A DNA stretch of 64,000 nucleotides, from positions 2,604,001 to 2,668,000 of the forward strand of contig NC_019962.1 of NCBI RefSeq assembly GCF_000230735.2, given 5' to 3'. Position numbers and translations under genes: made by a program. Source of the DNA: Natrinema pellirubrum DSM 15624. GTDB lineage: Archaea > Halobacteriota > Halobacteria > Halobacteriales > Natrialbaceae. The notes below the pieces were generated by a model, which ran no database searches, was not told where the DNA came from, and saw only the letters and a program-made list of their open reading frames with translations. Numbering within the stretch: position 1 is the stretch's first letter; each line of letters begins with the position of its first letter. Shown here in pieces: positions 28,061-33,500 of this stretch.

Positions 28061-28873
28061 TTACCCGCGTTTGTCCGGCATCGTCGAGTGGCAGGCAGTG
28101 CCGCGCATGTCCGCCCGCTGTGACGGCGGCGGCGCCATCGTCGAGTGGCGACTCGGCCCGCCCGAGGCCGTGCCGCGCTCCCCATCACCACCGAGTCCCG
28201 ATCCCAGCAGCCCCTCGTCGTCCTCATTGGCTGCCTCGTCGTCGGCCGCCGTCTCGCCGTCCGCGTCTCCGCCGGCGCTCCCGGCGCTTCGCTCCTCGAG
28301 TCGCGCCTTCAGTTGCGACACCTCGTCGCCGAAGTCGGCAAGCGAGTCACTCATCGCCGACCGGAGCCTGTCGCCGAAGTCGTCGGTCGTCGACTCGGCC
28401 TCGTCGGCCGCCGAGTCGTCCCCGTCGGACTCGGCCGGCGTCTCACCGTCGGCCGCCCCTTCACTATCGTCCGCGTCGACTGCGCTCTCTGCGGTGTCGG
28501 CTGCCGACCCGGCCCGTTCGCCGATAGCGTCCTGCAGGTCGTCGACGGCGTCCCCGAGTCCCCCGTCGTCCGCCCGGTCGGCGAGCCTCGAGAGCCGGAG
28601 CAATCGCTGGAGGTCCGCGACACGCTCCTGCTCGCCCCGGGCGATCGCCTCGGGGATCGAGTCCGGCTCCGAGCCGTCCTTGAGCGTGTCCAGTCCGAGC
28701 GCTCCAAGCAGGTCGTCGGGGTCGGCCGACTCGAGGATATCGTCGGCTTCGCGTGCGGTCTCGAGCAGGTCGGAGTCGGCGTCCCCGTCGTCGCCGGAGA
28801 CGAGCGAGCCGCCGCGCTCGTCGGCGTCGTGCAGTACCTCGCGGACGCGGTCCCGTAGTGATGAGTCGCTCAT
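28061..28873 (-). CDS. Acidic cluster protein 4 (hypothetical)
   Basis: Family not recognised. Of the 270 residues, the first 110 are helical and soluble (LRDRVREVLHDADE; LQRLLRLSRLADRAD). A long Asp/Glu/Ala-rich low-complexity segment follows, with one amphipathic helix (SDSLADFGDEVSQLKARLEERS). The tail is basic and Ser/Thr/Pro/Met-rich with two Cys-free/His-rich HSTM repeats. The tail is encoded over a 14-bp direct repeat (28079-28092 and 28136-28149). It is the last gene of the four-gene acidic cluster, 63 nt after the upstream stop. Confidence 0.65.
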   Translation of the reverse strand: MSDSSLRDRVREVLHDADERGGSLVSGDDGDADSDLLETAREADDILESADPDDLLGALGLDTLKDGSEPDSIPEAIARGEQERVADLQRLLRLSRLADRADDGGLGDAVDDLQDAIGERAGSAADTAESAVDADDSEGAADGETPAESDGDDSAADEAESTTDDFGDRLRSAMSDSLADFGDEVSQLKARLEERSAGSAGGDADGETAADDEAANEDDEGLLGSGLGGDGERGTASGGPSRHSTMAPPPSQRADMRGTACHSTMPDKRG

Positions 28874-28936
28874 GGATGTCTAGACCGTTCGTTCTCGCTG
28901 GTCGTCCCCGCGGACGGGACACGATGGGGCGATCGA

Positions 28937-29722
28937 CTACTCGGCTTCGGCCGCTTCCGTCTCCGAGTCGTCCGATCCCTCGTCGGTCACCGTCTCGACG
29001 ATCTCCGTGGTCATCTCTTCCCGGCTGAGGTTGGCCTTCACGCCGACGTCTTTCGCGACCGACTGCAGGTCGCTGTAGGACAACACCCCGAGGAAGTCCT
29101 CGAGGGTGTCTTCCCGCAGGTCTTCGATCTCTTCGACGGACGGCTCGGTGTCTCCGTCCGAATCCGCCGTTTCGTCGGTTTCCTCGCCGCCCTCGGTTTC
29201 CGACTCGGTCTCGGCACTGTCCTCGACCTCCTCGTCAGCCTCGTCGGAGTCCGCCTCCTCGTCGACCGACGGTTCGTCCGTGTCCGACTCCGCCTCGCCC
29301 TCCGATTCCGCGTCGTCGGTATCCCCGCCTTCGTCGCTGCCTCCCTCGAGCAGGCCCTCGACGCCGCCACCTTCGGTGACGCCTTTCGCCATCGACTCGA
29401 GGGAGTCACGGCCCTCGATCTCCGAGATCGATTCCCGAACGGCGTCCGTGACCGCCGTCCGAACCTCGGCCGGCAGGTCGCCGAGTTCCTTGCCCTCCTC
29501 GAGGCCCTCGGCGACCGTCTCGTGGACCTCGCGACCGACGGCGGTCCCCAGTTGCCGCCCGAACTGCTCGCCGAACTGGCGGCCGACCGCGGCCCCGACC
29601 TCGCCGCCGTCGATACTGTCCTCGAGGCTGCCGTCGCCGAGCAAGTCGGCCACGTCGACCTGTTCTTTTACCTCGTCGGCGACCATCCCCTTCAGCCCGG
29701 ACTCGTCACTCACGCCGATCAC
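28937..29722 (-). CDS. Acidic cluster protein 3: glycine-zipper plus SAP-like domain
   Basis: A 261-residue protein of unknown family. Glycines recur every fourth residue at 39, 43, 47, 51, 55, 59 and 63 (for example VGAAVGRQFGEQFGRQLG), forming a seven-glycine zipper. A helical part follows (about 70-115), then a Glu/Asp/Ser-rich region (about 125-195). The C-terminal 50 residues resemble a SAP or Rho-N type helix-extended-loop-helix (YSDLQSVAKDVGVKANLSRE). The zipper is paralogous to that of the gene upstream, 41 nt away. It could be an oligomeric scaffold with a nucleic-acid or protein-binding end. Confidence 0.68.
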   Translation of the reverse strand: MIGVSDESGLKGMVADEVKEQVDVADLLGDGSLEDSIDGGEVGAAVGRQFGEQFGRQLGTAVGREVHETVAEGLEEGKELGDLPAEVRTAVTDAVRESISEIEGRDSLESMAKGVTEGGGVEGLLEGGSDEGGDTDDAESEGEAESDTDEPSVDEEADSDEADEEVEDSAETESETEGGEETDETADSDGDTEPSVEEIEDLREDTLEDFLGVLSYSDLQSVAKDVGVKANLSREEMTTEIVETVTDEGSDDSETEAAEAE

Positions 29723-29763
29723 CGCCGCTCAAGCGGGCGTCGTAGCGAAGCCGGCTCACGGGC

Positions 29764-30261
29764 TTACTCTTCCTCCTCGGCTTCGGCTTCCATTTCGTTC
29801 TCGGCGTCCTCGTCGGCCGCGTCGTCGCCCTCCGCCGACTCCTCGTCGCCGGCATCGGCGTCGCTTTCGGCCTCGTCTTCCGCCTCGGTTTCTTTTTCGG
29901 TGGCTTCGTCTTCGGACTCGGTACTCTCCTCGTCGGGCGACTCCTCGCCCTCGGATTCCGACTCATCGGACTCCGCTTCGGTGGCTTCCTCCTCGGAGGC
30001 GCCGCTTTCCTCCTCGGCTTCCGACTCGGACTCGTCGCTGCTGAGCAGTTCCTCGACGACCATGCTCCCGATCGTCCGGCCGAGCGATTCGCCGACTTTG
30101 CGACCGACGAGCGCACCGATCTGCCCGCCGAGTGCCGCGCCGAGGGGCATGTCCTCGTCGATCTCGTCTTCCCACTGGGTCCCTTCGACGAGCTGGTCGA
30201 CGTCGATGTTCTCCGTGATCGCTTCCGTGTCGATCCGCTGTGTGATGGATTCGTCGCTCAT
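29764..30261 (-). CDS. Acidic cluster protein 2: glycine-zipper protein
   Basis: A 165-residue protein of unknown family. An N-terminal Ile/Asp-rich segment (QRIDTEAITENIDVDQLVEG) precedes a seven-glycine zipper with glycines at 41, 45, 49, 53, 57, 61 and 65 (LGGQIGALVGRKVGESLG). The last 90 residues are almost only Glu, Asp, Ser and Ala. The zipper region is charged, so an oligomerising helix is as likely as a membrane helix. The ATG overlaps the stop of the 462-residue gene upstream by 4 nt, indicating translational coupling. Confidence 0.68.
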   Translation of the reverse strand: MSDESITQRIDTEAITENIDVDQLVEGTQWEDEIDEDMPLGAALGGQIGALVGRKVGESLGRTIGSMVVEELLSSDESESEAEEESGASEEEATEAESDESESEGEESPDEESTESEDEATEKETEAEDEAESDADAGDEESAEGDDAADEDAENEMEAEAEEEE

Positions 30262-31646
30262 GATGTCGCCTCCGTTTCCGCTGCCGATTCCGGCTCGCCG
30301 CCGGACGCCGTTTCCTCGCTCTCGGGCTCGAGTTGCTCGATCAGTTGTTCGATCACCTGCGAGACGACGGCCGCGACGATCTCCTCGACGGGCAGACTGG
30401 GGACGAGCCCGGACAGCTTCTCGCGCAGCCAGCCGCCCACTCTGGCGAGCGGGCCGGGTGACTCCTCGCCCGCATCCACCTCGTCGGTCTCGTCCGCGGT
30501 TTCCTCGCCGGTCGTCTCGTCGGCCGCTTCATCCGCTTCCTCGCCCTCGTCCGCAGCAGCCTCGCTTTCCTCGGGACCGCCGCCGAAGAGCCCGCGGAGC
30601 CACGCCACGGGCTTCCTGAGGATCGCTTTGAGCCAGCCGCCGAGCGACGAGAGCGGGCCGCCGGACTCGCCCTCGGACTCCTCGCCTTCGGCTTCCCCGC
30701 CGCCGATACCGAGGAGCGCGGTCAGCCACTCTTTGGGCTTGCTCACTAACCCGCTGAGGAACTCCTTGGGCTTCTCGAGGAGGCCGCTGAGAAGCTCTTT
30801 GGCCTTCCCCGGGACCTTCTTGAGCAACTCGAGCGGCTTTTTCAGCAGCGATTTCGCCTTGTCCAGCATGGCACCGGGACCGTCGAGCAGCCCCGTCACC
30901 GCCGACAGCAGGTTCCCGAGCAGGTTGTTCGACCCCGGCCGCGCCGAGACGTCCAACTGCACCGGGTTCAGGTTCACCTCGAGGCCGAGCAGGTCGAGAA
31001 AGAGCCCGTCGAGATCGAGGTGGAGGACGCCGGCGGCGTCGTCGCCCTCGTAGACGTCCTCGGCGTCCGCAGCGTGGCCCTCTTCGCGATCGTCCTCGAC
31101 GAGGTCGCCGGTATCGGCCCGTTCGTCCTCGTCTTCGTCCTCCCCTGCTGAGTCCTCGTCTTCGGCGTCCGCGTCCGCGGGCTCTTCGTCGGTTTCCGCC
31201 TCGGAGGATTCCGCCGCCGGCCCTTCGTCAGTGTCTGCGTCCGACTGTTCCTCCTCGGCTTCCGCCGTTTCATCGTCCTCGGTTTCCTCTGCCTCGCTCT
31301 CCGACGACTCCTCGTCTTCTGTCGCTTCTTCGTCCGCAGCGTCCTCTTGCTCGTCCTCCGCGACCGTTTCGTCTTCGGCACCTTCCTCGTCCTCGGCTTC
31401 CGCTTCCGACCCCTCATCGCCGTCTTCGGCCGACTCGTCTTGCTCCGCTCCCGAGGCGTCTTCGTCGCCCTCGGGGCCGTCACCCTCGTCGTCCGGTTCT
31501 TCCATCTCCGCTTGGCCGCCATCGGTCAGCACCCGGTGTGGCGGCCCCGTCGGCCGCTTCCCCTCGTCGGGACGGCCCGCGGAGCGCTCGCCCCGCTCGA
31601 GGGCCGAACGCTCTCTCGAGCCGTCACGGTCGAACTCTGCGGTCAT
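30258..31646 (-). CDS. Acidic cluster protein 1: amphipathic 11-residue repeat protein
   Basis: Of its 462 residues, 50-200 are an acidic low-complexity arm. A conserved-looking core (about 207-256) combines short hydrophobic strands with GNLLGNLL-type helix motifs (LDLLGLEVNLNPVQLDV; NNLLGNLLSAVTGLLDG), a pattern I have seen in secreted bacterial and archaeal hypotheticals. Four in-phase 11-residue amphipathic repeats follow (270-280, 281-291, 292-302, 303-313: K-P/A-K/L-E-hydrophobic-L type). Then come a further helix, a second acidic arm and a C-terminal amphipathic helix (about 418-440). It is first in the cluster. A start at 31505 (Met48) is an alternative, because a TATA-like motif directly abuts 31646. 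Confidence 0.68.
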   Translation of the reverse strand: MTAEFDRDGSRERSALERGERSAGRPDEGKRPTGPPHRVLTDGGQAEMEEPDDEGDGPEGDEDASGAEQDESAEDGDEGSEAEAEDEEGAEDETVAEDEQEDAADEEATEDEESSESEAEETEDDETAEAEEEQSDADTDEGPAAESSEAETDEEPADADAEDEDSAGEDEDEDERADTGDLVEDDREEGHAADAEDVYEGDDAAGVLHLDLDGLFLDLLGLEVNLNPVQLDVSARPGSNNLLGNLLSAVTGLLDGPGAMLDKAKSLLKKPLELLKKVPGKAKELLSGLLEKPKEFLSGLVSKPKEWLTALLGIGGGEAEGEESEGESGGPLSSLGGWLKAILRKPVAWLRGLFGGGPEESEAAADEGEEADEAADETTGEETADETDEVDAGEESPGPLARVGGWLREKLSGLVPSLPVEEIVAAVVSQVIEQLIEQLEPESEETASGGEPESAAETEATS

Positions 31647-31749
31647 TATACGACAAAACGGACGGTAGTGAGCGTTGTGGGGGTTGGCCTTGCGTATGCG
31701 ACAGGCTCGGCCCAGCGGACAACGAACGTCGAAAACAAGTACCGATCCG

Positions 31750-33132
31750 CTACTCGAGCGAGCTGACTCGGAGCGCGTACTCGCCGCGGGTCTCGCCGTC
31801 GTCGTGGTAGGCGACGGGCTCCTCGATCGCGGCGATCGTTCCGTCGCCGACGGCCGCAGCCGTGGCGATTCCCTCGAGCCGTTCGACCCCGGCCGGACCG
31901 GACTCGAGGTCGAACCGGCGAACGGCGTGGGTGTCGGGATCGCGAACGCGGAAGTTCTGGGCACAGGGGGCAACCAGCTGGCCGCCGGCAGCGGCCAGGC
32001 CGTGGACGAAGCCCCGGACTTCGGCGTCCCACAGCGGGTCGCCGTCGGCGTCGAACGCCGCGACGCGGTGTTCGTTCGGGTGGCGGCTGTCGGTCTCGCG
32101 GCTCTCGACGGCGTAGGTGTTGCCGGTCACGAACGCGACCCGGCCATCGTCGGCGTAGACGTGGTTCGGATAGGCGTACAGGGTCTCGCCGTCGATTGCC
32201 GTTTCGACGGCGAGATCGACGCTCCAGCGCTCTGCCCCGCCGGGTCCGAGCAGGTAGCCCCGTTTGTCGCCGTGACTCGAGACTGCGATGGCGTCGCCGT
32301 CGAACGAGACGTCACCGACGCGGCGGTCGCCCTCGGTGCCGGGGTCCCACGTCCACTCGAGGTCGCCACCTTCGGCGGTTTCACCGTCTTCTCGCGGGCT
32401 TTGCCCGCTCGAACGTTCCGCGGAACTCCGTTCCGCGCGACCTCCGTTTCGCGACGACTCAGTCGTCGCGCCCGTCCCGAGGACGACGAGCCCGGTGTCG
32501 TGGTCGCCCATGCAGCGGTTGTAGCCGACCGCCAGCCGCTCGCCGTCGGCAGAGGGATCGAGCGCGATCGGCGAGGCGTCGGTCTCGTAGGTCCAGCAGA
32601 CAGCGCCGTCGGGGGCGAACGCATAGACGGTGCTGTGCCACTGTCGGGTCTCGCCGTCGCGTTCGTACCGCCGCGCGGCGGCGTAGAGCCGTTCGTTGCC
32701 GTCCGCGTCGGTCCCCGTCTCGAGCGCCACGACGTAGGGCAGGTAGAAGACGGTGTCCTTGACCGGCTCACCGACGTCGTCGGCAGTGTCGTAGCGCCAC
32801 CGGCGTTCGCCCGTCGCGGCATCGTAGGCCGCGATCGTTCCGGTCTCACCGCGGCCGGCGACGACGATCGTCTCGTCGTCTTCGAATGATGTGACCCCGA
32901 CCGCGTGGTCCGGATGAGCGACCGTCCACCGGGCCTCGAGCGAGTCGACATCGCGGGCGGTGACGGTGCCGTCCCACTCGCCGGTGACGACGAGATCGCC
33001 GGACTCGGCGAGTCCGACCGCCGAGCGGGTCCACATGTGGCGGCTGCGGGCGGGCTCGATCTCGCCCAGCGAGGCGGTCCGAAAGTCGAGGCCGTCCTCG
33101 CGTTCGGTGTCGACAGTCTCGGTCATCGTCAT
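31750..33132 (-). CDS. PQQ-type beta-propeller repeat protein of the cobalamin operon
   Basis: A 460-residue cytoplasmic (no signal peptide) beta-propeller. Blades show the WD/PQQ-like pattern (TIAAYDAATGERRWRYDT; HRVAAFDADGDPLWDAEV). It is the last gene of the cbiT-started operon, overlapping the DUF3209 stop by 4 nt. Family members sit in haloarchaeal cobalamin clusters, but their role is unknown to me; a scaffolding or substrate-channelling role is a guess. Between two blades a 35-residue Ser/Arg/Glu-rich insert is encoded by a three-hairpin element (see 32394-32469). Confidence 0.82.
   Translation of the reverse strand: MTMTETVDTEREDGLDFRTASLGEIEPARSRHMWTRSAVGLAESGDLVVTGEWDGTVTARDVDSLEARWTVAHPDHAVGVTSFEDDETIVVAGRGETGTIAAYDAATGERRWRYDTADDVGEPVKDTVFYLPYVVALETGTDADGNERLYAAARRYERDGETRQWHSTVYAFAPDGAVCWTYETDASPIALDPSADGERLAVGYNRCMGDHDTGLVVLGTGATTESSRNGGRAERSSAERSSGQSPREDGETAEGGDLEWTWDPGTEGDRRVGDVSFDGDAIAVSSHGDKRGYLLGPGGAERWSVDLAVETAIDGETLYAYPNHVYADDGRVAFVTGNTYAVESRETDSRHPNEHRVAAFDADGDPLWDAEVRGFVHGLAAAGGQLVAPCAQNFRVRDPDTHAVRRFDLESGPAGVERLEGIATAAAVGDGTIAAIEEPVAYHDDGETRGEYALRVSSLE
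32394..32469. repeat. Triple-hairpin palindromic element inside the beta-propeller gene
   Basis: Three perfect short palindromes in a row: gcgggc-ttt-gcccgc (32394-32408), gcggaac-tcc-gttccgc (32420-32436) and gcgacgact-c-agtcgtcgc (32451-32469). They lie in coding sequence, in frame, in a linker that is Ser/Arg/Glu-rich and unlike its surroundings. This is what an intergenic-type palindromic repeat looks like after insertion into a gene without breaking the frame. Confidence 0.65.
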
Positions 33133-33500
33133 TCCTCTACCGGAAAGGTCTCGTGGAGGGTGTCGTGGGCGTCGCCGAGCCCATCGACGATGCTCGATCC
33201 CTGTGTACGAAGCCGCTGGATCGCTCGCTCGGCGTTCCGGACCTCGAGCAGCCGGCCGCGCGTGTAGTCGAATTCGGGGTCCTCGCTATCCAGCGCGGCG
33301 ACCTCTTCCTCGAGGTCGACCAGCGCCGCGTCGAGGTGGCGTTCGATCTCCGTGAGGCTCTCGGCCTCCGCGAGGCCCTTGATCGGCCCCTCGAGGTGGC
33401 CCTCGAGTTCCTTCTCCGCGTGATCGCGGGTGCTGTCGTCCCCGACGCCGAGGACGTTCATCAGTCCGAGTCGTAGTGCTTCGATTTCGTGGCAGCTCAT
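33129..33500 (-). CDS. DUF3209 family protein
   Basis: A 123-residue helical protein that begins MSCHEIEALRLGLMNVLG and is helical throughout, with Glu-rich amphipathic helices. The family is known from haloarchaeal cobalamin clusters, typically beside cbiX. The conserved Cys3/His4 pair near the N-terminus could hold a metal, but no function has been shown to my knowledge. It lies 41 nt after the cbiX stop and overlaps the propeller gene by 4 nt. Confidence 0.85.
   Translation of the reverse strand: MSCHEIEALRLGLMNVLGVGDDSTRDHAEKELEGHLEGPIKGLAEAESLTEIERHLDAALVDLEEEVAALDSEDPEFDYTRGRLLEVRNAERAIQRLRTQGSSIVDGLGDAHDTLHETFPVEE

Follow-up and report, generated by a model that had tools for sequence, protein, structure and literature searches.

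Four consecutive genes of Natrinema pellirubrum DSM 15624, g1 to g4, located on the minus strand within a 64,000-nucleotide stretch of contig NC_019962.1 (positions 2,604,001 to 2,668,000, hereafter the window), most probably constitute an accessory operon that serves the gas-vesicle system of this organism from an unlinked locus and shapes or reinforces the shell of vesicles devoid of GvpC (estimated probability about 0.85). This assignment was based on four lines of evidence: the cassette was present or absent together with gvpA, both were lost jointly, homologues of the genes resided inside gvp clusters of other haloarchaea, and g4 was homologous to GvpI. The link to gas vesicles was established by genomics; that g1 substitutes for GvpC is inferred. 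The four genes are a previously unrecognised gas-vesicle gene set.

The distribution of the cassette was compared with that of the gas-vesicle genes. Among 125 genomes of the family, PF00741 was detected in 112, and the g1-g2 pair was found in 110 of these gvp-positive genomes versus none of the 13 gvp-negative ones. A partial cassette was recorded in two gvp-positive genomes of the family, at a contig edge in G090 and with a shortened g1 in G065. Within the class (292 genomes), the g1 core was present in 95 of 119 gvp-positive genomes and in 0 of 173 gvp-negative ones, that is, only together with gvpA (Fisher p ~2e-54, uncorrected for phylogeny). The identities of the Gvp proteins in N. pellirubrum were confirmed by Pfam and NCBIfam, and the cassette and the gvp cluster were ~1.0 Mb apart. 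At least four independent joint losses of the cassette and gvp (G054, G063, G069 and G110; three within the genus of N. pellirubrum) were read from an rpoB-segment tree of 60 family genomes, the loss cases being limited to near-complete genomes.

Relatives in other haloarchaea were found by scanning named genomes for the g1 core, and in some of them the cassette genes were physically linked to gvp genes. The gvp cluster of Halocatena was arranged as gvpF-G-H-[g1]-[g2]-[g4-like GvpI]-J-K-L-M, and the same g1-g2-g4-position arrangement occurred in G180. A complete cassette directly adjoined gvpO-gvpA in G237 and was placed next to gvp in G113 and G115. Homologues were located beside gvpA/gvpO or gvpM in Halococcus and Halalkalicoccus, and 12 kb from the gvp cluster, on the same plasmid, in Haladaptatus halobius. 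In several gvp clusters (L185:5244-5606, L142:4193-4531, L183:5138-5473 and L231:8339-8692), gvpO and the g1 homologue flanked a further small gene (LPWIDEP..., carrying a zinc-finger-like CPxC motif), which is a possible additional gas-vesicle gene.

Further, the relationship of g4 to GvpI was investigated. A profile of in-cluster GvpI proteins matched the GvpI of H. salinarum (E 1e-15) and most of the g4 proteins (1.2e-7 for g4 of the window, 4e-15 for the best). The homology extended beyond the paired C-terminal ST(M/V)P motif, which was conserved across g4 orthologues as RHSTMAPPPSxRADM...RHSTMPDR: the N-terminal domain of g4 was aligned with the protein at the GvpI position of the gvp cluster (hhalign 98 %, E 2e-13), a likeness that held for the Natrialbaceae in-cluster protein. 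Judged by this homology, g4 is a GvpI-family protein, and it was called a paralogue because another protein occupies the GvpI position in the gvp cluster of the same genome (locus L196). The g4 gene was not located between gvpH and gvpJ, a placement that is customary and not part of the definition of the protein. The basic N-terminus of GvpI (pI, the isoelectric point, of about 10.8) was not found in g4, which had a net charge of -49; the in-cluster GvpI of this genome likewise carried an acidic N-terminal extension. Compared with the GvpI of Halobacterium and Haloferax, g4 was acidic instead of basic, did not have the R(I/L)YG(R/Q)RF tail, represented a second copy outside the gvp cluster, and contained an N-terminal domain missing from H. 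salinarum GvpI. In Natrialba magadii, the in-cluster protein has been described as a distant GvpI that carries a long extension at its N-terminus (PMC3403918). Vesicles become extremely long when GvpI is deleted, and GvpI is a binding partner of GvpH (PMC7688916).

The four genes were closely spaced, with a 4-nt overlap of g1 and g2 followed by gaps of 41 nt (g2/g3) and 63 nt (g3/g4). The content of Asp and Glu was 31.8, 41.2, 33.3 and 27.0 % in g1, g2, g3 and g4, respectively, versus a median of ~20 % for the other genes here. No Pfam or NCBIfam model matched g1 to g4 at or above the cut-off. Similarity in Asp and Glu was not taken as homology, because acidic arms lead to false matches, and searches beyond the family were restricted to the ordered cores. 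The family search recovered g1 (110 genomes), the g2 core (109) and the N-terminal domain of g4 (107) at adjacent coordinates. The fixed order g1-g2-g3-g4 and the tight spacing were kept in 39 loci spanning nearly all genera while the flanking genes varied; therefore, the cassette is an autonomous module, and the persistence of the gene order in nearly all relatives despite the changing flanks indicated that the four genes are real. An initial annotation of the window had described four consecutive acidic genes as a single coupled unit of structural or assembly character, and both the gene layout (positions, lengths, overlap and gaps) and this description were upheld, the open reading frames being co-directional. 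It had also suggested checking whether the genes stay together or are scattered; they stayed together. No description of the cassette was found in the open-licence literature.

The g1 protein was compared with GvpC, which in cyanobacteria is an amphipathic helix of 33-residue repeats (3 x 11) positioned on the ribs of GvpA (PMC10185304). The g1 protein shared amphipathic helical repeats with GvpC, with a period of 11 residues, and an acidic region. The identity at lag 11 gave z = 5.4, and the 11-residue hydropathy period was kept on average in 39 orthologues; AlphaFold modelled the repeat region as helical with modest confidence. Moreover, g1 was found only where GvpC was missing: a strong Halo_GVPC match was recorded in 11 genomes of the class and the g1 core in 0 of these 11 (p 6e-6 outside its own family, uncorrected for phylogeny). 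However, no sequence homology connected the two proteins, and the g1 core was unrelated to GvpC and shared with apparently secreted bacterial proteins. In sequence g1 does not qualify as a GvpC, but it may work like one. A search of the g1 core and of the C-terminal domain of g3 against PDB sequences gave no meaningful match.

By sequence comparison, the g1 core is an uncharacterised domain that occurs in both archaea and bacteria. The bacterial proteins carrying it were short, apparently bore signal peptides, contained two conserved Cys and came from Nocardioides, Mycobacterium, Virgisporangium, Phycicoccus and Chloroflexi (L152, L156, L166-L169, L175 and L182).

The N-terminal glycine-zipper domains of g2 and g3 were paralogous (hhalign 98 %, E 6e-14). 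AlphaFold predicted a long glycine-zipper helix in g3 (predicted local distance difference test score, pLDDT, above 90) followed by a SAP-like C-terminal domain, for which Foldseek returned weak matches to Rho, SAP and DEK domains with E-values above 1. The features are collected in Table 1.

Table 1. Features of the gas-vesicle accessory cassette, numbered from the first letter of the window
Feature	Position	Strand	Description
g1	30258..31646	minus	462 aa; N-terminal (V/M)(L/M)TDGG motif, long acidic arm, hydrophobic core, 11-mer amphipathic repeats, C-terminal helix; motif, core and helix conserved
g1 core, HLDLDGLFLDLLGLEVNLNPVQLDVSARPGSNNLLGNLLSAVTGLLDG	30879..31022	minus	diagnostic part of the module; 22 invariant columns in a 60-column alignment of 20 diverse homologues
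g1 repeats, KAKELLSGLLE/KPKEFLSGLVS/KPKEWLTALLG	30708..30806	minus	three consecutive 11-residue amphipathic repeats after the core
g2	29764..30261	minus	165 aa; glycine-zipper domain at the N-terminus (zipper 30067-30144), then acidic tail
g3	28937..29722	minus	261 aa, GTG start; glycine zipper 29534-29599, acidic linker, three-helix SAP-like domain at the C-terminus 28979-29125
g4	28061..28873	minus	270 aa; GvpI-family paralogue by homology; N-terminal domain homologous to the GvpI-position protein of its own gvp cluster
g4 C-terminal motif, RHSTMAPPPSQRADMRGTACHSTMPDK	28070..28150	minus	paired ST(M/V)P common to g4 and GvpI (H. salinarum: NPAAHSTMPP...HSTVP)
32-bp element, GTCGCAYACGCAAGGNNAAYCNCCACAACGCT	31671..31702	minus	~25 nt upstream of the g1 start; near-invariant across genera

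We proposed that g1 would lie on the GvpA shell through its 11-residue amphipathic helices, with the acidic arm directed towards the cytoplasm, and would stiffen or solubilise the vesicle, taking over from the absent GvpC. With their glycine zippers, g2 and g3 could associate with g1 as its anchor or as a helical oligomeric partner, and the SAP-like domain at the end of g3 might offer one more binding module. By analogy with GvpI, the conserved ST(M/V)P motif at the C-terminus of g4 would mediate docking on the accessory complex of GvpH and GvpL, through which g4 might influence vesicle length and shape.

Several observations weigh against the assignment of the cassette to GvpC-less vesicles. 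Species with such clusters have been reported as gas-vesicle-negative (Vac-) in the laboratory (PMC4390858), hence the module may act only under conditions other than those tried. Two gvp-positive genomes of the family (G001 and G013) were without the cassette, about ten other gvp-positive genomes had neither g1 nor a clear GvpC, and G065 (L223:3432-3698) retained gvp and g2-g4 with a g1 of only 88 aa, in which the conserved core was lost. The GvpC model PF05465 was unmatched in this genome and in the cassette genomes, save one weak match in G301. AlphaFold left the g1 core unresolved, with low confidence, and a GvpA/J/M-like hairpin suspected in the core by eye (LLGLEV versus LVGIEI) was rejected (hhalign <1 %). 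The g1 core was also present in apparently secreted bacterial proteins, and only 2 of the 8 genomes concerned contained gvp; a gas-vesicle role of these bacterial homologues was unsupported. Finally, a promoter motif shared by the cassette and gvpA, CTTGCN4GC, stood before 30 of 39 g1 genes and 17 of 18 gvpA genes but in only 7 of 574 control promoters, and it was not used as evidence, because it had been picked after viewing both sets and because a full-width position weight matrix test was not significant (p 0.05-0.4).

Among the alternatives, a gas-vesicle module that regulates the length, shape, number or clustering of vesicles, either in the manner of GvpI or via the SAP-like domain of g3, without standing in mechanically for GvpC, was considered a serious possibility, though short of even odds. 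It agrees with the GvpI-like character of g4, as GvpI limits vesicle length, with the three-helix domain that ends g3 and its weak structural matches, and with the gvp clusters containing neither g1 nor GvpC. A surface role is favoured instead by the amphipathic 11-mer repeats and by the finding that g1 and GvpC exclude each other, and the g3 matches have E-values above 1.

A generic role unconnected with gas vesicles, as a self-assembling scaffold, a granule coat or a stress-protective matrix, had been the first proposal for these genes and appeared very improbable. The acidic low-complexity arms and the absence of a curated domain would suit it; the restriction of the g1 core to gvp-positive genomes, the homologues inside gvp clusters and the homology of g4 to GvpI do not. 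The structural or assembly character of that proposal was retained, and its generic role was replaced by one in gas vesicles on account of the gvpA distribution, the joint losses, the in-cluster homologues and g4. The repeated structural parts claimed for the cluster were recovered as the paralogous zipper domains of g2 and g3 and the 11-residue repeat of g1, and the claim that none of the proteins matches a known one failed for g4.

It was likewise judged highly unlikely that the co-occurrence merely reflects an ecology or a clade history which buoyant species have in common. Both the cassette and gvp are near-universal in the family, and Fisher tests ignore phylogeny; yet the two were lost together repeatedly at unlinked loci, cassette genes are nested in the gvp clusters of other families, and g4 belongs with GvpI. 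A function tied to the cobalamin (cbi) or tungstate genes nearby, suggested by adjacency in the window and by the cobalamin genes upstream of the cassette in about half of the 39 loci, was refuted by synteny and has practically no probability left, since the cassette stands intact beside quite different, unrelated genes in the other half, in line with the initial annotation, which had seen no obvious link to these neighbours.

The reading of g1 to g4 as a gas-vesicle accessory operon bears on the known haloarchaeal 11-gene gvp clusters, which lack gvpC and gvpDE (PMC4390858, PMC3403918). The cassette co-occurs with these clusters, and the present genome has one (L196); however, they have been described as complete without the four unlinked genes. 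It was tentatively proposed, at somewhat less than an even chance, that haloarchaea possess a second, non-homologous gas-vesicle reinforcement, in which g1, the zipper proteins g2 and g3 and a dedicated GvpI paralogue replace GvpC in more than 100 species whose "Vac-" clusters had been taken for complete or silent. Gas vesicles serve as a standard model in the study of protein self-assembly and as a tool in biomedical ultrasound, and the set of genes behind them had been considered known. If true, the proposal would add a conserved unlinked four-gene module with three new protein families and would explain how GvpC-less clusters work. The puzzle of the Vac- species would become directly testable, and new parts would become available for the engineering of vesicle strength and shape.

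The 32-bp element upstream of g1 was more strongly conserved than the surrounding sequence. With up to 3 mismatches allowed, a single copy was present in this genome and in each of 11 other matching relatives, and none was found in the gvp-negative congener G063. The element is probably the promoter or operator of the operon; its resemblance to the promoter motif of gvpA lacked significance. A search for RNA elements gave no Rfam match. Separately, a repeated motif, GCTTGCANNNGCAG, was observed ~53 nt before gvpA in gvp loci L196-L215, which are clusters without GvpE, and several genomes had another copy farther upstream; it is a candidate site for a gvp regulator.

Between the cassette and cbiX, at 31750-33500 of the window (minus strand), a pyrroloquinoline quinone (PQQ)/BamB-like beta-propeller gene and a DUF3209 gene were located, which travel with the cobalamin genes and not with the cassette.

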